From positions 67,948-131,947 of the forward strand of contig NZ_MQWD01000001.1 of the NCBI RefSeq assembly GCF_002283365.1: DNA of 64,000 nucleotides, written 5' to 3'. The translations under genes and the position numbers were made by a program. Under the pieces are notes generated by a model. It searched no databases. It was not told the DNA's origin and saw only the letters and a list, made by a program, of their open reading frames with translations. This DNA comes from Rubrivirga marina. Its GTDB lineage: Bacteria; Bacteroidota; Rhodothermia; Rhodothermales; Rubricoccaceae. Shown here in pieces: positions 18,654-31,196 of this stretch (positions within the stretch are counted from its first letter, which is position 1; every line of letters begins with the position of its first letter).

Positions 18654-19598
18654 ATGCCTCTCGACAGCATCCTCGCCGCCATCGGCGGCACGCCCCACGT
18701 CCAGATCAACCGGCTCTACGGCCCGGACGCCCGCGTCTGGATGAAGCTGGAGCGCCAGAACCCCGGCGGCTCCATCAAGGACCGGATCGCGCTCGCCATG
18801 ATCGAGGCCGCCGAGGCGAGCGGCGACCTGAAGCCCGGCGGGACGATCGTCGAGCCGACGAGCGGCAACACGGGCGTCGGCCTCGCGATGGTCGGCGCCG
18901 TCAAGGGCTACCGCGTGATCCTGACGATGCCCGAGTCGATGTCGGTCGAGCGGCGGACGCTCATGGCGGCCTACGGCGCCGAGTTCGTCCTGACGCCCGC
19001 GACGGGCGGGATGAAGGGCGCCATCGAGGGCGCTGAAAAGGTGCTCGCCGAGACCGAGGGCGCCTGGATGCCGCAGCAGTTCGAGAACCCGGCCAACCCG
19101 CGCGTGCACGAGGAGACGACCGCCCAGGAGATCCTCGACGACTTCCCCGACGGCCTCGACGCGATCGTGACGGGCGTCGGCACGGGCGGCCACATCACGG
19201 GCGTCGCCCGCGTGCTCAAGCGCGAGTGGCCGGACCTGAAGGTGTTCGCCGTCGAGCCCGACGCCTCGCCGGTCATCAACGGCGGCGACCCCGGCCCGCA
19301 CCCGATCCAGGGCATCGGCGCCGGCTTCATCCCGAAGAACCTCGACACGGACCTGCTCGACGGCACGATCCGCGTGACGGGCGACGAAGCGAAGGCCTTC
19401 GCCCGGCGCGCGGCGAAGGAAGAAGGCCTGCTCGTCGGCATCTCATCAGGCGCCTCGCTGGCCGCGACAGAGAAGGCCCTGGCCGACCTCCCCGACGGCG
19501 CGCGCGTCCTGACGATGTGCTACGACACTGGCGAGCGGTACCTCTCGGTCGAGGGCCTCTTCGAGATGCCCGAGCCCCGCGAGCACCCGCTCCCGTAG
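18654..19598 (+). CDS. cysK: Cysteine synthase A (O-acetylserine sulfhydrylase)
   Basis: A 314-residue PLP enzyme that converts O-acetylserine and sulfide to cysteine. The PLP lysine is K42 in [12 protein letters not shown]. The substrate loop [11 protein letters not shown] (about 66-76) and the phosphate-binding [13 protein letters not shown] are intact, as is GISSGAS near the C-terminus. Its length is right for CysK. It lies 84 bases behind cysE on the same strand. Convergent with the SDR at 19638; a palindromic repeat separates the two genes. Confidence 0.95.
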
Positions 19599-19637: not shown

Positions 19638-20471
19638 TCAGCCGCGCCCGAGCCGGTCGGCGCCCTTTCTCAGGACCCGCCAGTAGCGGACCGGCATCAG
19701 CCGCTGCAGGAGCGCGCCGGACCGCGCGCCGCTCGCGACGAGCAGCCGTGGCGAGCGCTTCTCGATGGCGTCCGCGATGGCCTCGCCGACCGCCTCGGGC
19801 GGCGTCCGGAGGAACTGGCGCTCGAAGGCGGCCTGCTTCCGCGCGACCTCGTCGGCGTCGGCGCCGGCCGCGACGCGGGCGCTCGTCGAGATGGCCGTCG
19901 CCACGCCGCCGGGGTGGACGACCGTCACGCCGACGCCCGTCCCCTCCAGCTCGTGCCGGAGCGCCTCGCTGAACCCGCGGACGGCGAACTTCGACGCCGC
20001 GTAGGCCGCCTGCTCGGCCGGCGCGATGATCCCGAACAGGCTCGACAGGTTCGCGATCTGCGCCTCGCCCGCCGCCCGGAGGTGCGGCAGGAACGCTTTC
20101 GTGAGGCCGACGAGGCCGAAAAAGTTGATCTCCATCAGCCAGCGGACCTCGTCCATCGAGACCTCCTCGACCCGGCCCGCGAGCGCCACCCCGGCCGCGT
20201 TCACGAGGACCGATACGCGGCCGTGCTCCGCCATCACCGAGTCCGGCAGCGCCGCGACCGCGCCCGCCTCGGCGACGTCGAGGACGTGCTCGCTCACGGC
20301 GACGCCCAGGTCCCGAGCGGTGTCGGCGGTGGCGCGGAGCCCGTCGGCGTCGCGGTCGACGAGGGCGAGCGCGCAGCCGCGGCGGGCGAGCGCGAGTGCC
20401 GTCGCCCGTCCGATGCCCGAGGCGGCCCCGGTCACGACGGCGACGCCGGAGGCGAGGCCGAGGCGCGTCAT
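19638..20471 (-). CDS. SDR dehydrogenase coupled to the monooxygenase-esterase gene
   Basis: A 277-residue classical SDR. The cofactor motif is TGAASGIGRATA (15-26), then NAAG, the Ser in NLSSLFG and YAASK. A basic extended C-terminus (KRSPRLLVASGARSG...) is typical of the SDRs found beside flavin monooxygenases. Its ATG overlaps the stop of the preceding monooxygenase-esterase gene by four bases (ATGA), so the two are almost surely translated together. By that context it may oxidise a secondary alcohol to the ketone used by the monooxygenase, or handle the alcohol released by the esterase. Direction and substrate are inference. Confidence 0.87.
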   Translation of the reverse strand: MTRLGLASGVAVVTGAASGIGRATALALARRGCALALVDRDADGLRATADTARDLGVAVSEHVLDVAEAGAVAALPDSVMAEHGRVSVLVNAAGVALAGRVEEVSMDEVRWLMEINFFGLVGLTKAFLPHLRAAGEAQIANLSSLFGIIAPAEQAAYAASKFAVRGFSEALRHELEGTGVGVTVVHPGGVATAISTSARVAAGADADEVARKQAAFERQFLRTPPEAVGEAIADAIEKRSPRLLVASGARSGALLQRLMPVRYWRVLRKGADRLGRG

Positions 20472-23047
20472 GCCGGGACGGCGACGGCGTGCTCCGCCAC
20501 GAACCAGCGCCAGCGGCGGAAGGCGGCGACCGTCGCCCGCCTGGCGCCGCGGCTGATGGGCGCGAGGTGGAGAAACCCGTGCGGCAGGCTCGCCTGGCGG
20601 TAGAGCGCCGTCGGCGTGCCGGCGGCCTTGAGGGCGCGGGCATACGCCTCCCCCTCATCCCGGAGCACGTCGAACCCGGCCGTCACGACAAACGCGGGCG
20701 CCAGACCGTCGAGCCGGCCGTAGAGAGGCGAGACACGAGGATCGTCCTCTGGCACGGCGCCCTGCGTGTAGACGTCGAAGAACGCCCGGCGGAGCCCGTC
20801 CGGGAGGAGGTAGCCGTCGAACCGGCGCCGCGACGGCCGGTCGGTCGGGTGGTCGGTGGCCGGGTAGATCAGGAGCTGGGCGACGGGCGGCGCGTCGGCG
20901 CGCGTGGCCTGGGCGACGCCGGCCGCGAGGGTCCCGCCCGCGCTGTCGCCACCGACGGCGACCCGGTCCGGGTTGGCGCCGAGGCGAGCGGCCTCGCGCT
21001 GCGCCCACCGAAAAACGCCGACGGCGTCGTCGAAGGCGGCGGGGAATGGGTGCTCGGGCGCGAGCCGGTAGGCCACGCTCAGGACGGCGTGCCCGGCCTG
21101 CCGGCACAGCAGCCGGCACGGCTCGTCGTGCGTGTCGAGGTCGCCCTCGACGAACCCGCCGCCGTGGAGGTAGACCACGAGCGGCGGCGGCCCGTCGGCG
21201 TGCTCGGGCGTGTAGAGCCGGGCGTCGAGCGGGCCGGCGTCGCCCTCCACCCAGAGGTCGCGGACGCCCCCGACACGCGTCGGCGTGCCGGTGATGCCCA
21301 GGACGTCGCGGCGGTACCCGGCGCGCGCCGTGGCGGGATCGTGGCGGACGAGCGGGACGGTGTTCGGGCGCGGGTGGAGTGCGAGCGCGAGGTGGACCGC
21401 CGGGTCGAGCCGCTGGCCGTCGACCTCGGGCGGAGGGCCGCCGGCGAGCGCGACCTGGGCCGCCTCGGGGAGCCGGGCGGCGGCCCGGGCGGCGGCCCCG
21501 AGCGCGCGGTCTCCGAGTGCCGGCTCGGTCTGGGGCGCCTCGCGGAGAGACGGCGGCGGGCCGGCCTGGCCATCGCCCGACGTCGCCCAGCGCGGGCGGA
21601 GGCGGTACTCGTCGGGGTCGAACGGCTCGACGCGGCGGCGGAACGCCGGGACGGAGCCCGGCCACAGCGCCGCGTTCCGCCCCGTCTCGTCGAGGTACCA
21701 CGACGCGCAGCCGCCGGCCGTCCAAACGGTGTCCTCCGCCATCCGGTCGACCTCGGCGACCCACGCCGCCTGCGCCTCCGCCTTCGGCTCGACCGCCGCG
21801 AGGTCGCGCGCGTCCATCGCCCTCAATGCGCCCACGACGTGCTCGATCTGGGCCTCCGCCATCAGCACCACCGACGAGTGTCCGAGGCCGGTGTTCGGCC
21901 CCTGGAGCAGGAAGAAGTTCGGGAAGCCGGCGACCGTCGTGCCGAGGTGCGCCGTCGGGCTCGCGCCCCAAACGTCGGCCAGCCGGCGGCCGTCGCGCCC
22001 GGCGACGTACCGGGCGAACGGGAGGTCGGTCACGTAAAAGCCCGTCGCGAGCACGATCACGTCGGTCGGCCGCTCGACGCCGTCGGCGCCGACCGTCGCG
22101 TGCGGGAGGATGGTCTGGAGCGCGCCGTCGACGACGGTCACGTCGGGCTGCGTGAGGGCCGGGTAGTAGTCGTCGGACAGGAGGATCCGCTTGCAGCCGA
22201 GCCGGTAGTCGGGTGTGAGGACGCGCCGGAGCTCGGGGTCGCGGACCTGCTGGCGGAGGCGCCGGAGCATGACGCGCTCGACCTGCCGCGCGAGGCGGGG
22301 GTGGCGGAAGGGCAGCCCGTTGGCCTCGTGGTAGCCAAAGAGCGTGCGCCGGAGGAGGCCCTGGAGGCCTGGCCGCTCGCGGAACCGCCGCCGCGTGGCG
22401 TCGCCGAACGGCGCGTCGCGTCGCGGGATGACCCACGCCGGCGTCCGCTGGTACACGATCATCTCGCCCACGCGCGGCTGGATCGCGGGGATCACCTGGA
22501 TCGCCGAGGCGCCCGTCCCCACGACCGCCACCCGCTTCCCGTCGAGGGCGACCGACTCGTCCCAGCGCGCCGTGTGCATGACCTCCCCCGCGAAGCCGCC
22601 GAGGCCGGGAATGTCGGGGAGCTTCGGCTCGGCGAGCGCGCCCGGCGCGGCGACGAGAACGTCGGCGGTGACGTCGCCCCCGCTCGTCTCGATGCGCCAG
22701 CGGGCCGCCGCGTCGTCCCAGGCCGCCTCGGTCACGGCGTGGCCGAACCGGACGCGCGGCATCACGCCGAACCGCTCGGCGACGTCCTCGAGGTAGGCCC
22801 GGATCTCGGGCTGACGCGAGTAGCGGCGGCTCCAGTCGGGGTTCGGGGCGAACGAGAACGCGTAGAGGTGGCTCTGCACGTCGCACGCCGCGCCGGGGTA
22901 CGTGTTGTCGCGCCAGACGCCGCCGACGGTGTCGGCCCGTTCGAGCACGACGAGATCGTCGACGCCCTCTCGGAGGAGGCGGACGGCCGCGCCGATGCCG
23001 GCGAACCCGGTGCCGATGACGGCGACGCGGTGATGAGGAACAGACAT
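20468..23047 (-). CDS. Fusion: Baeyer-Villiger-type flavin monooxygenase + HSL-type (GDSAG) esterase
   Basis: An 859-residue, two-enzyme protein. Residues 1-485 form a flavin monooxygenase: FAD motif GTGFAGIGAA (12-21), Baeyer-Villiger fingerprint FAGEVMHTARWD (152-163) and NADPH motif GTGASA (177-182). After a Pro/Ala-rich linker and helical stretch (about 490-600), residues 600-859 are an HSL-family esterase: HGGG (628-631), nucleophile S702 in GGDSAGG, D793 in GFDVLRDEG and H823 in LPHGF. The natural reading is ketone to ester or lactone, then hydrolysis, in one polypeptide. The start at 23047 is chosen because the FAD motif follows at once. A predicted operator lies 7 bases upstream; the stop overlaps the SDR start. 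Confidence 0.88.
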   Translation of the reverse strand: MSVPHHRVAVIGTGFAGIGAAVRLLREGVDDLVVLERADTVGGVWRDNTYPGAACDVQSHLYAFSFAPNPDWSRRYSRQPEIRAYLEDVAERFGVMPRVRFGHAVTEAAWDDAAARWRIETSGGDVTADVLVAAPGALAEPKLPDIPGLGGFAGEVMHTARWDESVALDGKRVAVVGTGASAIQVIPAIQPRVGEMIVYQRTPAWVIPRRDAPFGDATRRRFRERPGLQGLLRRTLFGYHEANGLPFRHPRLARQVERVMLRRLRQQVRDPELRRVLTPDYRLGCKRILLSDDYYPALTQPDVTVVDGALQTILPHATVGADGVERPTDVIVLATGFYVTDLPFARYVAGRDGRRLADVWGASPTAHLGTTVAGFPNFFLLQGPNTGLGHSSVVLMAEAQIEHVVGALRAMDARDLAAVEPKAEAQAAWVAEVDRMAEDTVWTAGGCASWYLDETGRNAALWPGSVPAFRRRVEPFDPDEYRLRPRWATSGDGQAGPPPSLREAPQTEPALGDRALGAAARAAARLPEAAQVALAGGPPPEVDGQRLDPAVHLALALHPRPNTVPLVRHDPATARAGYRRDVLGITGTPTRVGGVRDLWVEGDAGPLDARLYTPEHADGPPPLVVYLHGGGFVEGDLDTHDEPCRLLCRQAGHAVLSVAYRLAPEHPFPAAFDDAVGVFRWAQREAARLGANPDRVAVGGDSAGGTLAAGVAQATRADAPPVAQLLIYPATDHPTDRPSRRRFDGYLLPDGLRRAFFDVYTQGAVPEDDPRVSPLYGRLDGLAPAFVVTAGFDVLRDEGEAYARALKAAGTPTALYRQASLPHGFLHLAPISRGARRATVAAFRRWRWFVAEHAVAVPA

Positions 23048-23265: not shown

Positions 23266-25326
23266 ATGCAGATCACGCTCCCCGACGGCTCCACCCGCGA
23301 CCTTCCCGACGGCGCGACCGGCCGCGACCTCGCCCAGGACATCTCCGCCGGCCTCGCCCGTGCCGCGCTGGCCGTCGAGGTCGACGGCGAGGTCCGCGAC
23401 CTCGACCGCCCGCTCCCCGACGGCGCGACGGTCTCGATCCTGACGTGGGACTCGGAGGGCGGCAAGGCCGCCTTCTGGCACTCGTCGGCGCACCTCATGG
23501 CCGAGGCGCTGGAGGCGCTCTACCCGGGCGTGAAGCTCGGCATCGGCCCGGCCATCGAGAGCGGGTTCTACTACGACGTGGACCTGAGCAGGACCGACCA
23601 TCCGGTCCTCTCGGCCGACGACCTGCCCGAGATCGAGAAGAAGATGATCGAGTTGGCGCGGCAGGACAGCGCCTTCGAGCGGCGCGACGTCCCGAAGGCC
23701 GAGGCCGTCGCCCACTTCGAGGCGAAGGGCGACCCGTACAAGCTGGAGCTCCTGGAGGGCCTGGAGGACGGCGCGATCACGTTCTACACGCAGGGCGGCT
23801 TTACCGACCTCTGCCGCGGGCCCCACATCGCGAGCACCAAGCCGATCAAGGCCGTCAAGCTCCTCAACCTCGCCGGCGCCTACTGGCGCGGCGACGAGAG
23901 CCGCCCGCAGCTCACGCGGATCTACGGCGTGAGCTTCCCCAAGCAGAAGCTGCTGGAGGAGCACCTCGAGCGGCTGGAGCTGGCCAAGCAGCGCGACCAC
24001 CGGAAGCTGGGCCGCGAGCTCGAGCTGTTCATGTTCTCCGACAAGGTCGGGCCGGGCCTCCCGATCTGGCTCCCGAAGGGCGCCCGCCTCCGCGAGACGC
24101 TCGTCGACTTCCTCAAGGAGGAGCAGGTCAAGCGCGGCTACGAGCCCGTCGTGACGCCGCACATCGGGCGGCTGGAGCTGTACCGGACCTCGGGCCACTA
24201 CCCGTACTACAGCGACTCCCAGTTCCCGCCCATGTTCGAGAAGGGCGGCGCCTCCGGCTCTGCCGGCCTCGGCACCGAGGCGGAGGACGTCAGCGAGGGC
24301 GCGGAGATCGCCAACGCGGGCGACGGGACGGGCGCGGCGCCCGTCGTGGGCGATGAGCAGGGGTACCTGCTCAAGCCGATGAACTGCCCGCACCACACGC
24401 AGGTCTACGCCCACAAGCCCCACTCGTACCGCGACCTCCCGGTCCGCCTCGCCGAGTTCGGGACGGTCTACCGCTACGAGCAGTCGGGCGAGCTCGGCGG
24501 CCTCACGCGCGTCCGCGGCTTCACGCAGGACGACGCCCACATCTTCTGCACGCCGGCCCAGGTCAAGGACGAGTTCAAGAACGTGATCGACCTGACCCTG
24601 ACCGTGCTCAAGGCCCTCGCGTTCGAGGACTTCACGGCGCAGGTCTCGCTCCGCGACCCCGCCAACACCGAGAAGTACATCGGCGAGCCCGCGCAGTGGG
24701 ACGACGCCGAGCAGGCGATCCGCGAGGCCGCGGCCGAGATGGGGCTCGAGACGGTCGAGGAAGAGGGCGAGGCCGCCTTCTACGGCCCCAAGCTCGACTT
24801 CATGGTCAAGGACGCGCTCGGCCGGAAGTGGCAGCTCGGGACGGTCCAGCTCGACTACAACCTCCCGGAGCGGTTCGACCTGACGTACGTCGACGAGAAC
24901 GACGCCCGCGTCCGGCCGGTCATGATCCACCGCGCGCCGTTCGGGTCGCTGGAGCGGTTCGTGGGCGTCATGCTGGAGCACACGGGCGGCAACCTCCCGC
25001 TGTGGCTCGCGCCGACGCAGGTGAAGGTCCTCCCCATCACGGACGACCAGAACGCCTACGCGCAGTCCGTCGCCGCCGACCTCAAGGGGGCCGGCCTCCG
25101 CGTCGAGGTCGACACGCGCTCCGAGAAGGTCGGGCGGAAGATCCGCGACGCCGAGGTCGAGAAGGTCCCGGTCATGCTCATCGTGGGCCGCAGCGAGGCC
25201 GAGGCGGACACGGTCAGCGTCCGCCGCCACGGCCTCGGCGACGAGTCCGACCAGGGCACGAGCGAGGTCCCGGCCCTCCGCCAGTCGCTCCTCGACGAGA
25301 TCGCGCGCCAGCTCGGGCGGGCGTAG
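23266..25326 (+). CDS. thrS: Threonyl-tRNA synthetase with a lineage-specific insertion
   Basis: A 686-residue class II synthetase. A TGS domain (1-62, MQITLPDGSTRDLPDG) precedes the second additional domain (about 70-230), the catalytic core (about 260-560) and the anticodon-binding domain (about 565-686, KVLPITDDQNAYAQ). Zn ligands are C374 (KPMNCPHH), a His in RGFTQDDAHIFC and a His in MIHRAPFGSLER. Between motif 2-proximal SGHYPYYSDSQFPPMFEK and YLLKPMNCPHH about 37 extra residues (327-363, Gly/Ala/acidic) are present, beginning with GGASGSAGLGTEAED. This insertion is partly encoded by a copy of the palindromic repeat. It lies just before the strictly conserved Zn cysteine but at a loop, so the enzyme should still work. 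Confidence 0.95.
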   Translation: MQITLPDGSTRDLPDGATGRDLAQDISAGLARAALAVEVDGEVRDLDRPLPDGATVSILTWDSEGGKAAFWHSSAHLMAEALEALYPGVKLGIGPAIESGFYYDVDLSRTDHPVLSADDLPEIEKKMIELARQDSAFERRDVPKAEAVAHFEAKGDPYKLELLEGLEDGAITFYTQGGFTDLCRGPHIASTKPIKAVKLLNLAGAYWRGDESRPQLTRIYGVSFPKQKLLEEHLERLELAKQRDHRKLGRELELFMFSDKVGPGLPIWLPKGARLRETLVDFLKEEQVKRGYEPVVTPHIGRLELYRTSGHYPYYSDSQFPPMFEKGGASGSAGLGTEAEDVSEGAEIANAGDGTGAAPVVGDEQGYLLKPMNCPHHTQVYAHKPHSYRDLPVRLAEFGTVYRYEQSGELGGLTRVRGFTQDDAHIFCTPAQVKDEFKNVIDLTLTVLKALAFEDFTAQVSLRDPANTEKYIGEPAQWDDAEQAIREAAAEMGLETVEEEGEAAFYGPKLDFMVKDALGRKWQLGTVQLDYNLPERFDLTYVDENDARVRPVMIHRAPFGSLERFVGVMLEHTGGNLPLWLAPTQVKVLPITDDQNAYAQSVAADLKGAGLRVEVDTRSEKVGRKIRDAEVEKVPVMLIVGRSEAEADTVSVRRHGLGDESDQGTSEVPALRQSLLDEIARQLGRA
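24251..24286. repeat. Palindromic repeat inside thrS
   Basis: The core GCCTCGG-CA-CCGAGGC (24266-24281) sits inside a wider inverted repeat CCTCCG...CGGAGG (24251-24286). It is read in frame as GLGTEAE (334-340) in a loop insertion of threonyl-tRNA synthetase. Confidence 0.7.
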
Positions 25327-25456: not shown

Positions 25457-26488
25457 ATGCCCTCGAAAAACGCCACAATCCACGACGTCGCGACCCTCTC
25501 CGGGGTCTCGATCGGGACCGTCTCCGCCGTGCTCAACCGGAAGGGGACCGTCAGCGAGGGGACGCGGCGGCGGGTGCTCGACGCCATCTCGGAGCTCCAC
25601 TACCGCCCCAGCGCCGCCGCCCGCCGCCGGCTCCAGCCGACGACGGCCAAGAGCGTCGGGCTCATCGTCAAGGAGGTCAACAACCCGTACTTCGCCGACG
25701 TCATCTTCGGCGTGCAGGACGCGGCCCGCGAGCTGGGGTACCACGTGCTCGTGGGCCACACCGAGCGGAGCTACGACCTCGAGCAGCGGCTGACCGAGCT
25801 CCTCGTGGCCAAGGACGTCGACGGGCTCATCATCAACCCCCTCCTCAACGAGGACACCGACCTCTCGCACCTGTTCGAGATCCGCTGGACGAACGTCCCG
25901 CTCGTCCTCATCGAGAGCATCCGGGGCATCCAGGCCAACATGGTCGACGTCGACAACGTGGCGGCGGCGATGGAGGCCGTCGACTATCTGGTCGGGCTCG
26001 GGCACCGGCGGATCGTCCACTTCGGCGGGCCGCAGTACTCGGGCCACAGCGAGGAGCGGATCGAGGGCGTCCGGCGGGCCTTCATCGCCCACCGGCTCGT
26101 GATGGGCGAGGACGACGTGGTCCACGCCGGGGCGAGCCTGGAGGACGGCTACCGCGCCGCGCTGGGCTACTTCCGCGACCGGGAGGGCGACCGCCCGACG
26201 GCGATCACGTGCTACAACGACCTCGTGGCGATCGGCGTCCTCCGGGCGCTCCGCGAGCTCGGCCTCCGCGTGCCCGAGGACGTCTCGGTCGTCGGGTTCG
26301 ACGACATCGACGTGGCGAGCTACCTCAGCGTGCCGCTCACGACGGTGCGGATGCCGCGGCGCGAGATCGGCCGGCGCGCGACGCAGATGCTCATCGGGAG
26401 CGTCGAGGCGGCCGGGAAGGTCGCGCCCGAGAAGGTCGTGCTGGAGACGGAGCTGGTCGTGCGCGCCTCGACGGCGCCGCCCGCCTGA
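25457..26488 (+). CDS. LacI-family transcriptional regulator
   Basis: A 343-residue repressor. The N-terminal helix-turn-helix reads ATIHDVATLSGVSIGTVSAVLN (6-27), followed by the hinge (YRPSAAARRRL) and a periplasmic-binding-protein-like sensor domain (SVGLIVKEVNNPYFADVI...DVSVVGFDDIDVASY). Length and layout are standard. The effector is probably a sugar. It is the only LacI regulator in the window, and perfect or near-perfect TGAAACGTTTCA palindromes occur before araA and the GH9 gene, so it is the natural candidate to bind them; this link is inference. The hinge carries Arg-rich text rather than the usual AR-x-L, worth noting for operator preference. Confidence 0.92.
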   Translation: MPSKNATIHDVATLSGVSIGTVSAVLNRKGTVSEGTRRRVLDAISELHYRPSAAARRRLQPTTAKSVGLIVKEVNNPYFADVIFGVQDAARELGYHVLVGHTERSYDLEQRLTELLVAKDVDGLIINPLLNEDTDLSHLFEIRWTNVPLVLIESIRGIQANMVDVDNVAAAMEAVDYLVGLGHRRIVHFGGPQYSGHSEERIEGVRRAFIAHRLVMGEDDVVHAGASLEDGYRAALGYFRDREGDRPTAITCYNDLVAIGVLRALRELGLRVPEDVSVVGFDDIDVASYLSVPLTTVRMPRREIGRRATQMLIGSVEAAGKVAPEKVVLETELVVRASTAPPA

Positions 26489-26523
26489 GTCGCGCCCTTG
26501 GGGCAACCGGCAGGGGAGTCGTA

Positions 26524-26600
26524 GGGAGTGTGGGGGTGGGAATGGGGAGCACGGCGCTCCGGGCTCACACACTCCCCGCTCCCATCCCCCCACGCGCCGT
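26524..26600. terminator. Possible bidirectional hairpin between convergent genes
   Basis: The gap between the LacI gene and the DUF89 gene contains GGGAGTGTG (26524-26532) and its complement CACACTCCC (26571-26579), followed by further G-rich and C-rich tracts that can pair. No T-tract is visible. A convergent terminator is likely, but the structure is irregular. Confidence 0.4.
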
Positions 26601-26605
26601 CTGCT

Positions 26606-27766
26606 CTAGGCGGAGGCGCCGGGCTCGACGAACTGGACCACGCCATACGTCCCGCTCGTCCGCCAGTCGGGCTCGGCCGCATCGAGCCCCCGCTGGCGGT
26701 CCGGGTCGACGCCGACGAGCGTGTCGCTCTTGATGGTGCGGAGCGCGACGACCGGCGCGGGGAAGCCGCCGAGCGCGTCGGCGAGCGTCGCGTCGAGCGG
26801 CCAGATCGCGTCGTTGGTAGCGCGGCGGTAGTTGGCGTCGCCCTTGAGGACGACGAGGCTGGCCCCGGCGAACGCGCGCCCGAGGCGGGGCGGGAGGTCC
26901 CAGAACCGGCCCGGCGTGTTCCAGAAGACGTCCGGGACGACGCGGAGGCGGCCGGCCTCCATCGACTGGCGGAGCCGGCCGGCGAGGCCCGCGGGCTCTC
27001 CCCCGCGGTCGACCATGAGGTCGAGGAGCGCGTGGACGTCCGGCACGATGGCGTCGCTGACGAGGACCGGCAGGGCCTTGACGTGGAGCACGACGCGCTC
27101 GGCCAGCTCGTGCTCCAGCAGGAGGTCCGCGAGGACGTAGTCGAGCACCTGCTCCGTCCCCGCGTTGTCCATGACGACGTGGACCGTGCCGGGCGCCGCC
27201 CGCCGGAGGGCGGCCTCGGCCGCCTCGGCGTGGTCGGCGAGGAGGTGGTCCTCGTGGGCCGCCGTGCCCTGGGCCGCGCTGGCGGCGATGCTGAGGTCGA
27301 GCCGGTTGCCCCACAGCGCGCGCCGCAACGTCCGGGCGACGACGCCTTCGCCCTCGCCGCGGTCGTCGAGCCCGTCGGCCAGCGCCTCCCAGAGGGCGTC
27401 CGACGTCATCTCGTCGCGCTTGACGGGGGCGAACGGGTCGCGGCCGGTGTCGAGGTAGCGGGCCGCGTCCATCGCCATCCGGTAGGCGAAGTACTCGGCG
27501 AACAGCCACTCCGTGTCGAGCCAGCTCTCGCCGTCGTGGGCCGCGCGGATCGGGCGCCAGAGGTCGGCGTCGGGGGCCAGCTCGAGGTGCGGGAGCGGGG
27601 CGTCGGCGGCGATGGCGTCGGCGAGGCGGCGAAGGCCGTCCGCCATCCAGGGCGCGTCGGCATTGCGGTCGGCCGTCTCGTGGAGGAGGCGGGGCACGCG
27701 CTCCCTCATCGAGACGTGGGCAAACGCGTTCGAGCCGTCGGTGCGGACGGCGGGGGGGCGGGGCAT
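26606..27766 (-). CDS. DUF89 / ARMT1-like damage-control phosphatase family protein
   Basis: A 386-residue protein with the DUF89 layout: a helical N-terminal half and a C-terminal metal-binding alpha/beta core. The motifs VVMDNAGTEQVLDY, VVLKGDANYRRATND and VVALRTIKSDTLVG match the conserved Asp-Asn, KGDxNYR and RTxKxD elements of the family. Those enzymes are metal-dependent phosphatases thought to remove damaged phospho-metabolites (for instance over-phosphorylated sugars). The ATG at 27766 is preferred to an upstream in-frame codon at 27823. It is divergent from araA with an operator in the shared gap, which would fit a sugar-phosphate repair role in pentose use (inference). Confidence 0.8.
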   Translation of the reverse strand: MPRPPAVRTDGSNAFAHVSMRERVPRLLHETADRNADAPWMADGLRRLADAIAADAPLPHLELAPDADLWRPIRAAHDGESWLDTEWLFAEYFAYRMAMDAARYLDTGRDPFAPVKRDEMTSDALWEALADGLDDRGEGEGVVARTLRRALWGNRLDLSIAASAAQGTAAHEDHLLADHAEAAEAALRRAAPGTVHVVMDNAGTEQVLDYVLADLLLEHELAERVVLHVKALPVLVSDAIVPDVHALLDLMVDRGGEPAGLAGRLRQSMEAGRLRVVPDVFWNTPGRFWDLPPRLGRAFAGASLVVLKGDANYRRATNDAIWPLDATLADALGGFPAPVVALRTIKSDTLVGVDPDRQRGLDAAEPDWRTSGTYGVVQFVEPGASA

Positions 27767-27842
27767 CGAGACGAGGGGCGGGCCCGGAAAGCTATTCCGA
27801 GCGAAGCGCCCGGATCCGCCCAATCGGCCCGGGGGGCCCAGT

Positions 27843-27854
27843 TAAAACGTTTCA
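27843..27854. promoter_or_regulatory. Predicted LacI-type operator TAAAACGTTTCA
   Basis: The palindrome core AAACGTTT with flanks that differ by one base from TGAAACGTTTCA found at 60707-60718. It overlaps the upstream promoter element of araA and lies in the divergent gap with the DUF89 gene. Confidence 0.6.
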
Positions 27855-27881
27855 TTCACCTGGTCATCCGATCTATCTTTG
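27850..27881 (+). promoter_or_regulatory. Bacteroidota-type promoter of the arabinose operon
   Basis: TTTC (27850-27853), 20 bases, then TATCTTTG (27874-27881), a full match to the -7 consensus TAnnTTTG with near-standard -33 TTTG spacing. The -33 element lies inside the LacI-type palindrome, so a bound repressor would block the polymerase. It is 71 bases before the araA start. Confidence 0.6.
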
Positions 27882-27952
27882 TCGCCGCGTGCGGTCGCCG
27901 CCCGCCCCTTACCCATCCTCCCCCGCCGGAAGCGCTCCCACCCCGTCTCGCC

Positions 27953-29398
27953 ATGGAATCCCCCGCCCTCGGCACCCAGGTCCGCTCGAACGGCACGGCC
28001 GGCCGCTCCGCCCGCGTCCCGCGGATCGGCCTGCTCGGCATCATGCAGGAGCTCTACGACGAGACGTTCCCCGACATCACCGAGCGCCAGGGCAGCTACG
28101 CCCGCGAGATCATCGGGGCGCTGGGCGACGGCGTCGAGGTCTCGTTCCCCGGCCCGGCCCGCAACCGCGCCGACATCGAGGCGCGCGTCCGCCAGTTCAA
28201 CGCCGAGGGCCTCGACGGCATCCTCATCGTGATGCTGACCTACGGGCCGGCGCTCCGGACCGTCCGCGCCCTCCGCGAGAACCGGCTCCCCGTGATGCTG
28301 GCCAACACGCAGCCGCTCCGGACGATCACGGACGACTGGGACATGTCGCACCTGACGTTCAACCAGGGCGTCCACGGCGCGCAGGACATGGCGAACACGC
28401 TCGTCCGCCTCGGCGTCCCGTTCCCGGTGATCTCGGAGGACTGGCGGAGCGACGCGTTCCGCGAGTTCGTGACCGACTGGGCCCACGCCGCGCAGGCGGC
28501 CCAGTCGATGCGGACGATGCGGCTGGCCCAGTTCGGCCAGATGCCGGGCATGGGCGACATCCTCACCGACGAGGCCGCCTTCATGCGCGCGCTCGGCCCG
28601 CAGACCGACCGCGTCAGCCTCGGCACGATCGTGGAGATCATGGACGGCCTCCCCGACGAGGACGTCGAGGCGGCCATGGCCGAGGACCGGGAGAACTTCG
28701 AGATCGACGAGAACCTCGGCGAGGAGCAGCACGCCTACGCCTCGCGCCTCCAGGTCGCCTTCGAGCGCTACCTCGAACGCGAGGGGTACGACGGGTTCTC
28801 GGTCTACTTCGACGCGATCGGCGACGACGGGCGGTTCGAGCAGATCCACATGCTCGCGGCCTCGAACCTCATGGCGAAGGGGTACGGCTACGGCGGCGAG
28901 GGCGACATGTGCACGACGGCCCTCGTGACGGCCGGCCACGTCCTCGCGCCCGACGCCCACTTCACCGAGATGTACGCGATGGACTTCGAGCGCGACTCCG
29001 TCCTCCAGAGCCACATGGGCGAGGGCAACTGGAAGGTGGCCCGGAAGGACCGGAAGCCGAAGCTGATCGACCGGCCGCTCGGCATCGGCGGCCTCGACAA
29101 CCCGCCGACCGTCCTGTTCCAGGCCGAGCCCGGGACGGCCACGCTCGTCTCGCTCGTCCCGCTGGAGGGCGAGCGGTACCGCCTCGTCGTCTCCGTCGGG
29201 GAAGTGCTCGACACGGAGGAGATGCCGAACGTCGAGATGCCTTATTTCCACTTCCGGCCCGACACGGGCGTCCGGGCCTGCCTCGACGGGTGGCTCCGCC
29301 ACGGCGGGACGCACCACCAGTGCCTCCACCTCGGCGACGTGAGCCGGCGGTGGGAGATGTTCTGCGAGCTCACCGGCGTCGAGTACGCCCGCGTCTGA
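27953..29398 (+). CDS. araA: L-arabinose isomerase-family protein (AraA)
   Basis: A 481-residue protein of the fucose/arabinose isomerase fold: RIGLLGIMQELYDETFPDI at the N-terminus, LMLTYGPAL-type Rossmann segments, LMAKGYGYGGEGDMCTTALVTAG and the metal-site region MYAMDFERDSVLQSHMGEGNWKVA, ending in GGTHHQCLHLGD. The Glu and His residues of GGEGD and SHMGEGN are at the places of the AraA metal ligands. It is more divergent from E. coli AraA than its neighbours are from theirs, but araB and araD follow directly, so conversion of L-arabinose to L-ribulose is the best call. The ATG at 27953 follows a good promoter. Confidence 0.85.
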   Translation: MESPALGTQVRSNGTAGRSARVPRIGLLGIMQELYDETFPDITERQGSYAREIIGALGDGVEVSFPGPARNRADIEARVRQFNAEGLDGILIVMLTYGPALRTVRALRENRLPVMLANTQPLRTITDDWDMSHLTFNQGVHGAQDMANTLVRLGVPFPVISEDWRSDAFREFVTDWAHAAQAAQSMRTMRLAQFGQMPGMGDILTDEAAFMRALGPQTDRVSLGTIVEIMDGLPDEDVEAAMAEDRENFEIDENLGEEQHAYASRLQVAFERYLEREGYDGFSVYFDAIGDDGRFEQIHMLAASNLMAKGYGYGGEGDMCTTALVTAGHVLAPDAHFTEMYAMDFERDSVLQSHMGEGNWKVARKDRKPKLIDRPLGIGGLDNPPTVLFQAEPGTATLVSLVPLEGERYRLVVSVGEVLDTEEMPNVEMPYFHFRPDTGVRACLDGWLRHGGTHHQCLHLGDVSRRWEMFCELTGVEYARV

Positions 29399-29434
29399 GT
29401 CCGCCGGGCCCGCTCCCAGGCCTTGCCCCAAACG

Positions 29435-29444
29435 GAAGCGCTTC
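29435..29444. promoter_or_regulatory. Palindrome GAAGCGCTTC between araA and araB
   Basis: A 10-base perfect palindrome 19 bases before the araB start, inside ACGGAAGCGCTTCTCCGT. The AGCGCT centre is typical of many LacI-family sites. AAGCGCTT also occurs at 45058-45065 near the xylan transporter. It could also be a weak stem. Confidence 0.35.
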
Positions 29445-29462
29445 TCCGTACCATTGCCCGCC

Positions 29463-31196
29463 ATGCCCCGCGCCTACGCCCTCGGCCTCGACTACGGGAC
29501 CAACTCGGTCCGCGCCCTCGTCGTCGACACGCAGACCGGCGCCGAGGTCGGGACCGGCGTCTTCGAGTACCCGTCGGGCCAGGCCGGCATCCTGCTCGAC
29601 GCGTCCGACCCGAACCTCGCGCGCCAGAACCCGCAGGACTATGTGGACGGGCTCGAGGGCTCGGTTCGGGCCGCGCTCGAAGACGCTGCCGGCACCGAGG
29701 GCTTCGCCCCCGACCGCGTCGTCGGCATCGGGGTCGACACGACGGGCTCGACGCCGATCCCGGTCGACGCCGAGGGCCGGCCGCTGGGGCTCGACCCGCG
29801 CTTCCGTGACGAGCTCGCGGCGCAGGTCTGGCTGTGGAAGGACCACACGGGCCACGCCGAGGCGGCCGAGATCACCGCCGCCGCGAAGGAGCGGCACCCC
29901 GAGTACCTCGCCACGTGCGGCGGGACGTACTCCTCGGAGTGGTTCTGGTCCAAGATCCTCCGCTGCGCGCGCGTCGCGCCCGAGGTGTTCGAGGCCGCCC
30001 ACACCTGGGTCGAGCACGCCGACTGGATGCCGGCCGTCCTCACGGGCACCGAGCACCCGGACCGCCTGACGCGCGGGATCTGCGCGGCCGGCCACAAGGC
30101 GATGTTCCACGAGCGCTGGGGCGGCTACCCCGACGCCGACTTCCTCGCGTCGCTCGACCCGCGCCTCGCCCGCGTCCGCCAGTCGCTGCCCGACTCGACC
30201 CGGACGGCCGCCGAGGCGGTCGGAGGGCTGACCGAGGAGTGGTCGGCCCGCCTCGGGCTCCCGGCGGGCATTCCCGTGGCGACGGGCGCCTTCGACGCCC
30301 ACCTCGGCGCCGTCGGGTCCGGCATCGCGCCCGGCACGCTCGTCAAGATCATCGGGACGTCGACGTGCGACCTCATGGTCGCCCCGCTCGACGACGACTT
30401 TTCGGAGGCGCCCGGCCTGTGCGGCGTCGTGCCCGAGTCGGTCGTCCCGGGCCAGTACGGGCTGGAGGCCGGGCAGAGCGCCGTCGGCGACATCTTCAAC
30501 TGGTTCGTTGGGACGATCCGGCCGGAGGGCGAGACGCACGGGTCGCTGACCGACAAGGCCGAGCGGCTGGCGCCGGGCGCGAGCGGGCTGCTCGCGCTCG
30601 ACTGGCACAACGGCAACCGGACGGTCCTCGTGGACCAGCGGCTGACGGGGCTCGTGCTCGGGCTCACGCTTCACACGACGCCGGCCGAGCTGTACCGGGC
30701 GTTCGTCGAGGCGACGGCCTTCGGCGCCCGCGTGATCATGGAGCGGTACGAGGAGGTCGGCTCCGCGGTCGAGCGGATCGTCAACTGCGGCGGCATCTCG
30801 GCCAAGAACGAGATGGTCATGCAGATCTACGCCGACGTGATGGGCCGGCCGGTCTACCTCTCGCGGAGCGCCCAGACGTGCGCGCTCGGCGCGGCCATGG
30901 CGGGCGCCGTGGTGGCCGGCGCTGAGGCGGGCGGGCACGACAGCTTCCCCGACGCCGTCGACGCCATGACGGGCGTGCAAGACCGCGTGTTCGAGCCGGA
31001 CGCCGACCGCGCGGCCGTCTACGACCGCCTGTTCAGCCACTATCGCCGGCTCCACGACGCGTTCGGCGTGGCCGGGCAGAGCGACGACCTCGCCGACGTG
31101 ATGAAGGACCTCCTCGACCTGCGCGACGCCGTCCGCAGCGAGGCGTCGGGAGATCGAGAGAGCGAGTCGGTCGACGCCGCGGCCCACGAGGCATGA
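29463..31196 (+). CDS. araB: L-ribulokinase
   Basis: A 577-residue FGGY kinase that phosphorylates L-ribulose at O5. LGLDYGTNSVRALVVD is the N-terminal ATP/sugar motif; GIGVDTTGSTPIPVD, LWKDHTG, GGTYSSEWFWSKI and GTSTCDLM are ribulokinase-specific. The C-terminal FGGY motif reads NCGGISAKNEMVMQIYADV. Length fits AraB (about 560-580). An in-frame TTG lies three codons upstream; the ATG at 29463 is preferred. Its stop overlaps the araD start by four bases (ATGA), so araB and araD are coupled. Confidence 0.95.
   Translation: MPRAYALGLDYGTNSVRALVVDTQTGAEVGTGVFEYPSGQAGILLDASDPNLARQNPQDYVDGLEGSVRAALEDAAGTEGFAPDRVVGIGVDTTGSTPIPVDAEGRPLGLDPRFRDELAAQVWLWKDHTGHAEAAEITAAAKERHPEYLATCGGTYSSEWFWSKILRCARVAPEVFEAAHTWVEHADWMPAVLTGTEHPDRLTRGICAAGHKAMFHERWGGYPDADFLASLDPRLARVRQSLPDSTRTAAEAVGGLTEEWSARLGLPAGIPVATGAFDAHLGAVGSGIAPGTLVKIIGTSTCDLMVAPLDDDFSEAPGLCGVVPESVVPGQYGLEAGQSAVGDIFNWFVGTIRPEGETHGSLTDKAERLAPGASGLLALDWHNGNRTVLVDQRLTGLVLGLTLHTTPAELYRAFVEATAFGARVIMERYEEVGSAVERIVNCGGISAKNEMVMQIYADVMGRPVYLSRSAQTCALGAAMAGAVVAGAEAGGHDSFPDAVDAMTGVQDRVFEPDADRAAVYDRLFSHYRRLHDAFGVAGQSDDLADVMKDLLDLRDAVRSEASGDRESESVDAAAHEA

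Follow-up and report, generated by a model that had tools for sequence, protein, structure and literature searches.

A candidate natural fusion of a type I Baeyer–Villiger monooxygenase and an HSL-type esterase encoded in Rubrivirga marina

Can one polypeptide take over two consecutive steps of ketone cleavage, the insertion of oxygen beside the ketone and the hydrolysis of the ester formed? The question is raised by a gene in a stretch of 64,000 nucleotides from Rubrivirga marina (assembly GCF_002283365.1, contig NZ_MQWD01000001.1, positions 67,948 to 131,947; hereafter the window). An earlier interpretation made from the letters of this stretch (the sequence-only reading) had described an 859-residue chain that joins a Baeyer–Villiger monooxygenase (BVMO) to its likely follow-on esterase by a linker of about 115 residues. 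The chain is indeed encoded at 20468..23047 by a single uninterrupted frame of 859 codons, with the ATG at 23047 and the stop codon TGA at 20470-20468; its strand, which had been left unstated, is the minus strand, as for all parts of the gene given below. One chain with both hallmark sets intact thus stood, and the long linker did not. The single frame is intact and both domains carry their catalytic residues. Judged from the sequence, the gene product is probably a natural bifunctional enzyme composed of a type I BVMO and an HSL-type esterase for consecutive ketone-cleaving steps.

The N-terminal part (residues 1-484; 21596..23047) matches the Pfam FMO-like family at residues 6-211 (E 2.4e-15) with a score above the curated cut-off. 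According to the accessible text of PMC9836352, type I BVMOs are characterized by two GxGxx[G/A] Rossmann motifs flanking the fingerprints [A/G]GxWxxxx[F/Y]P[G/M]xxxD and FxGxxxHxxxW[P/D]. All these elements are found in the window protein: the Rossmann motif GTGFAG for flavin adenine dinucleotide (FAD) at residues 12-17 and the second one, GTGASA, for nicotinamide adenine dinucleotide phosphate (NADP) at residues 177-182 (NADP motif span 177-184) flank the long fingerprint GGVWRDNTYPGAACD (residues 42-56; 22880..22924) and the short fingerprint FAGEVMHTARWD (residues 152-163; 22559..22594), both of which are intact; the sequence-only reading had likewise called the BVMO fingerprint intact. 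In the alignment with PAMO, whose residue numbers were counted along the printed rows, R287 corresponds to Arg337, a column in which the PDB entry of the Arg337Lys variant has K, and D56, the last residue of the long fingerprint, to Asp66. The nearest solved structures by sequence are STMO and PAMO, and CHMO was also matched in the PDB search. A Foldseek comparison of the AlphaFold model with the PDB likewise indicated a BVMO fold, with CHMO 7v8o, STMO 4aox and PAMO 2ylt as top matches (E 1e-43 to 1e-41, template-modelling (TM) score about 0.8 over the target); the 50 best PDB matches listed are all BVMOs. The fingerprints and the equivalents of Arg337 and Asp66 mark the N-terminal half, by sequence, as a BVMO. 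Assignment to the PtlE pentalenolactone D synthase family (NF045818) was rejected at 220.5 bits against a cut-off of 1100.

The C-terminal part (residues 511-859, including its own N-terminal helices; 20471..21517) matches Pfam Abhydrolase_3 at residues 624-826 (E 4.7e-66, 223 bits against a cut-off of 25). The motifs HGGG (residues 628-631), GDSAG (700-704), DVLRDE (793-798) and PHGF (822-825) constitute the full oxyanion and triad set of HSL-type (Abhydrolase_3) esterases, that is HGGG, GxSxG and the triad Asp and His, in the same chain as the BVMO fingerprints, which agrees with the sequence-only reading. The nucleophile elbow GDSAG (20936..20950) with Ser702 was read out as a motif and aligned to Est8 which, together with another esterase (6aae) and EST2, is among the nearest solved structures by sequence. 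None of the 50 best PDB matches listed in the fold search concerns this half, and its identity as an esterase therefore rests on sequence. Among the 50 matches listed by a search of viral folds, unrelated hydrolases predominate, a few are oxidoreductases and no name denotes a BVMO–esterase protein. Membership in the LipP1 equivalog (NF058653) was rejected at 284.1 bits against a cut-off of 350.

The joint between the two parts was analysed in an AlphaFold2 model based on a 33-row alignment of the window and locus proteins (mean predicted local distance difference test score (pLDDT) 92.1; predicted TM score (pTM) 0.62). The sole segment with a pLDDT below 50 comprises residues 491-505, and the helices of the esterase part begin at residue 511. 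In a third species of the genus (G003, see below), the end of a stand-alone BVMO and the start of a stand-alone esterase both fall near residue 500 in the alignment, and esterases of Rubrobacter show clear similarity to the window protein from about residue 510-520. According to the model and these alignments, the true flexible linker would have a length of about 15-20 residues (about residues 491-510; 21518..21577), and the remainder of the supposed linker would be the N-terminus of the esterase itself. The linker is predicted to be disordered and the relative placement of the domains is uncertain in the model. Its pTM gives no ground for postulating a fixed placement or a channel, and the protection or channelling of an unstable ester, raised in the sequence-only reading, is not supported; what tethering offers is more likely a constant 1:1 dosage combined with closeness than a channel.

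The same fusion is present in a second species of the genus (G001; L003/L057), is 71% identical over residues 2-853 and contains no stop; an internal stop in relatives had been named in the sequence-only reading as the sign of a frame error. As it sits in a different neighbourhood, a shared assembly artefact does not explain the joined frame; the fusion is real and conserved. In G002 the contig stops at residue 338 of the protein (L004) and is uninformative in this respect. The third species, G003, encodes a complete, unfused BVMO of 497 amino acids (about 60% identical) on contig 5 and a separate complete esterase (353 amino acids from its ATG, 59-60% identical) on contig 1. In the family sample of nine genomes, including that of the window, matches better than E 1e-100 occur in just these four. 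The presence of both halves apart in G003 implies that the fusion arose after G003 had branched off or that it was later split in G003, and the former is favoured given the unfused relatives outside. In the comparison with G001, the BVMO and the esterase core have ratios of non-synonymous to synonymous differences (pN/pS) of 0.40 and 0.41, respectively, which point to purifying constraint on both domains; the ratio is higher in residues 485-520 (0.58), 485-545 (0.54) and 521-600 (0.62). The joint (residues 485-520) is the least conserved part with 36% identity to G001; changing fastest without acquiring a stop in either genome, it behaves as a flexible linker would.

A search for the same domain order in other genomes, as proposed in the sequence-only reading, retrieved further fusions in Pseudomonadota and on a Bradyrhizobium plasmid, and uniqueness of the BVMO–esterase architecture is thereby rejected. 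A metagenome-assembled genome of the Burkholderiaceae encodes a fusion of 867 amino acids (L049); among 150 genomes of that family fusions were found in at least two, the second being G057, with some long-frame matches unread. Across Pseudomonadota, at least eight of 299 genomes contain full-length fusions (G040, G797, G800, G875, G923, G964, G980 and G1047, the last with two copies). Plasmid NZ_CP121651.1 of Bradyrhizobium sp. CB82 carries a fusion of 825 amino acids (WP_283043299.1; L082 4028-6505). Its annotation reads only 'alpha/beta hydrolase fold domain-containing protein', and a BVMO half can thus escape name-based surveys. In the phylum of the window, matches passed a threshold of E 1e-50 in three of 296 genomes, and only that of the window itself is fused; G001, absent from these matches, had not been drawn. 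In the phylum of G041, a Mycolicibacterium, matches reached E 1e-130 or better in 29 of 296 genomes, and the 30 loci read include no fusion. All fusion counts are lower bounds, as three to six candidates per genome were scored at strict thresholds. No report of a natural BVMO–esterase fusion was found in the open-licence PMC literature, as far as its text is accessible, and such proteins may be tabulated in the supplement of Mascotti et al. 2015, which treats BVMO domain architectures; two papers that use 'natural fusion' or 'naturally fused' refer, in their accessible parts, to such enzymes as a class and, in the title of a cited work, to a styrene monooxygenase.

The proteobacterial fusions (L049, L068, L082, L122-L128, L140) have the domain order of the window protein, each in a single frame (825-951 codons). 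They differ from it in their steroid-monooxygenase-like BVMO, the four aligned being 34-37% identical to the window protein, and in the nucleophile elbow, which in the four read out is GWSAG or GESAG instead of GDSAG. The histidine of the short fingerprint matters for BVMO catalysis. It is missing in all 11 distinct proteobacterial fusions (replaced by F in eight and by S, R and T once each). Of the 31 unfused relatives in that clade, 25 keep it (four have another residue, two no pattern match), as do the remaining 72 BVMO parts without exception, among them the two fusions of the window's genus; the groups had been named by hand after inspection of the tree. This loss is a pattern in the alignment and not a test, since the sequences are related and the unfused L138 also has F. 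Within this data set, the fusions of the window's genus appear as the sole ones with a complete BVMO fingerprint.

Trees were calculated for 114 BVMO parts, for a reduced set of 43 BVMO parts, from which long, odd and truncated rows had been dropped and the remainder thinned by hand, and for 62 esterase parts. In all three, the fused proteins fall into three groups, one with the window's genus, one with L049, L068, L122-L127 and L140, and one with L082 and L128. The 114-part tree counts four changes with the truncated L004 taken as unfused, and the 43-part tree, without L004, three. A single origin of the 13 distinct fused proteins is rejected by the approximately unbiased (AU) test for the BVMO (p 7.09e-71) and the esterase (p 9.64e-07), whereas monophyly of the 11 proteobacterial fusions, which form two clades in the trees, is compatible with the test (p 0.219 and 0.15). 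The phylogenies thus indicate at least two separate fusion events, perhaps three, and a separate origin of the fusion in the window's genus from those of the proteobacteria. The nearest neighbours of its BVMO are unfused enzymes from the same order (G003, G020, G031), and those of its esterase are the esterase of G003 and, after it, Rubrobacter and other separately encoded esterases.

Unfused pairs of the two genes are found in diverse arrangements. Two Rubrobacter plasmids (L077, L078; NZ_CP031116.1, NZ_CP007516.1) contain genes for a BVMO, an alpha/beta hydrolase and a short-chain dehydrogenase (SDR) in that order with 4-base overlaps. BVMO and hydrolase genes are also adjacent in other plasmid records, in reverse order in L081, L090 and L091, and in L080 an SDR gene lies between them; these records were chosen for matching both halves and hence give no frequency. 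In Mycolicibacterium (L159) the BVMO and esterase genes, 39% and 42% identical to the window parts, overlap by 4 bases. Among 31 BVMO loci from genome contigs, one is fused and one more has a same-strand esterase match. The corresponding numbers are eight and three (esterase match) for 25 further loci from the phylum sample of G040, and a same-strand esterase and a same-strand SDR accompany seven and 17, respectively, of the 30 loci from that of G041. The stretches often reach just 1.5 kb past the match, and adjacency is therefore undercounted.

An SDR gene of 277 codons also adjoins the fusion gene in the window (19638..20471, minus strand; Pfam adh_short), its ATG overlapping the TGA of the fusion gene by four bases (ATGA). 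With respect to order, common strand and overlapping start and stop codons, fusion gene and SDR gene have the build of a BVMO–esterase–SDR operon, which the sequence-only reading had missed. The SDR gene is kept beside the fusion in G001 (L057 7198-8055) with 77% identity and probably supplies the module with its third enzyme. Upstream lies a divergent gene (23266..25326) that we take to be thrS, and downstream a convergent, presumably cysK-like gene (18654..19598). The fusion gene, or its start, adjoins thrS in the genome of the window and in G002 and lies elsewhere in G001, there near a frame presumed to be dnaA-like. No genomic position at which the cassette is conserved was found, the thrS stretches of G001, G003 and G004 (L156-L158) containing neither cysK nor the fusion; by this comparison the fusion has moved within the genus. 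Further away, the region 25457-31196 harbours what by eye appear to be a LacI-type regulator gene followed, on the same strand, by an arabinose-isomerase-like and a ribulokinase-like gene, interrupted by one gene of the opposite strand; these are unrelated to the fusion. A tandem-repeat scan of the window gave nine short repeats, of which the fusion gene contains two, at 21473-21498 and 22991-23032, and a scan of the window for tRNA genes found none.

Based on these data we propose the following scenario. The SDR would oxidize a secondary alcohol to the ketone, beside whose carbonyl group the N-terminal BVMO half, using FAD, NAD(P)H and O2, would insert oxygen to form an ester or a lactone. 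This product might then be hydrolyzed to acid and alcohol by the C-terminal HSL-type serine esterase, which would thus act on the product of its own BVMO half. The succession of the BVMO and esterase steps is suggested by the sequence motifs and by analogy to known pairs. The whole would be a compact module for oxidative C–C cleavage, corresponding to the Rubrobacter-type BVMO–esterase–SDR operon with its first two genes fused.

Several observations weigh against this scenario. In G003 the two halves lie on different contigs, so that the esterase is not necessarily reserved for the BVMO. The pTM of 0.62 implies no fixed geometry between the domains, and the position of PAMO Arg64 is occupied by Ala54. 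A same-strand esterase match is lacking in the short stretch covered for 23 of the 30 BVMO loci of the G041 phylum sample, and the BVMO stretches of G020 and G031 show neither an esterase nor an SDR match. Finally, no gene near the fusion in the list of open reading frames of the window points to a substrate.

The most serious alternative is that two independent enzymes share a chain after a neutral loss of the stop codon between overlapping genes. Genes with a 4-base overlap as in Rubrobacter could be fused by one small indel, the linker is disordered in the model, G003 encodes the halves separately and without linkage, and near kin of the esterase (L168, L172) have no BVMO match within the 2-kb stretch covered. 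However, the same pair is adjacent in many records and became fused, in the same order, on at least two separate occasions, and the two reactions are consecutive in a characterized pathway (acmA/acmB; described in the accessible part of PMC6215540). We consider independence unlikely. The N-terminal half might, secondly, be an S- or N-oxygenating flavin monooxygenase and not a Baeyer–Villiger enzyme. The two enzyme classes, type I BVMOs and FMOs, have folds in common, and heteroatoms are oxidized by BVMOs too. Yet both BVMO fingerprints with the equivalents of PAMO Arg337 and Asp66 are present, STMO, PAMO and CHMO are the closest relatives of solved structure, the partner is an esterase, and an FMO-type motif F-x-G-x3-H-x3-[YF] is absent from the window protein; pure FMO-type N-oxidation, the other refutation envisaged at the outset, is accordingly very unlikely. 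A sequencing or assembly frame error, for which adjacent overlapping genes as in Rubrobacter and the weakly conserved joint might be adduced, is hardly conceivable and is ruled out by the intact joined frame, 71% identical and without a stop, in the independent genome G001 in another neighbourhood.

Coupled action of a BVMO and an esterase in one chain thus remains the preferred interpretation, and the protein is a candidate for a natural one-protein conversion of ketone to acid and alcohol, a pairing of interest to biocatalysis, for which the unfused pair in the sister species G003 can serve as a natural control. Since distant bacteria have arrived at the same fusion repeatedly, it becomes testable whether the joining of consecutive enzymes is selected for coupling. 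A more far-reaching idea, which we regard as doubtful, holds that the repeated separate fusions in the same order stem from a kinetic advantage of keeping a reactive or volatile ester in one protein and represent genuine coupled enzymes; the proteobacterial loss of the histidine, uniform and itself a testable oddity, would then reflect a changed oxygenation chemistry.

In relation to known systems, the BVMO half has its fold, its fingerprints and the equivalents of Arg337 and Asp66 in common with PAMO (1w4x) and STMO (4ap3), which are single-domain BVMOs about 30% identical to it; it deviates from PAMO at the position of Arg64. There is nothing unusual about the pathway as such, in which the hydrolysis of an ester follows a Baeyer–Villiger step, and the claim that BVMO and esterase genes are known neighbours is borne out by two systems. 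In Gordonia sp. TY-5, as described in the accessible part of PMC6215540, acetone monooxygenase (acmA) and methyl acetate esterase (acmB) convert a ketone via the ester to acid and alcohol; like the window protein they combine BVMO and esterase in one operon for consecutive reactions, and unlike it they are two separate proteins, the likeness being drawn from their description. In Sphingobium AntQ-1, a type I BVMO gene adjoins a lactone hydrolase gene and is induced during anthraquinone breakdown (available text of PMC9836352). The mymA-lipR-sadH genes of the virS/mymA locus of M. tuberculosis encode a monooxygenase, an esterase (a thioesterase in one paper) and a dehydrogenase (accessible parts of PMC10272862 and PMC10740695), the same three kinds of function in the same order as in the window; they are separate genes with a role described for the cell envelope, again likened by description. 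The Rubrobacter operon has the three functions and their order in common with the window at identities of 45-48% (BVMO), 46-52% (esterase) and 45-47% (SDR), and differs in being unfused, in being annotated by family only and in a BVMO that groups elsewhere in the tree. The window protein is a real and conserved fused form of a known gene pair, in an architecture that it has in common with the separately arisen fusions of the proteobacteria.

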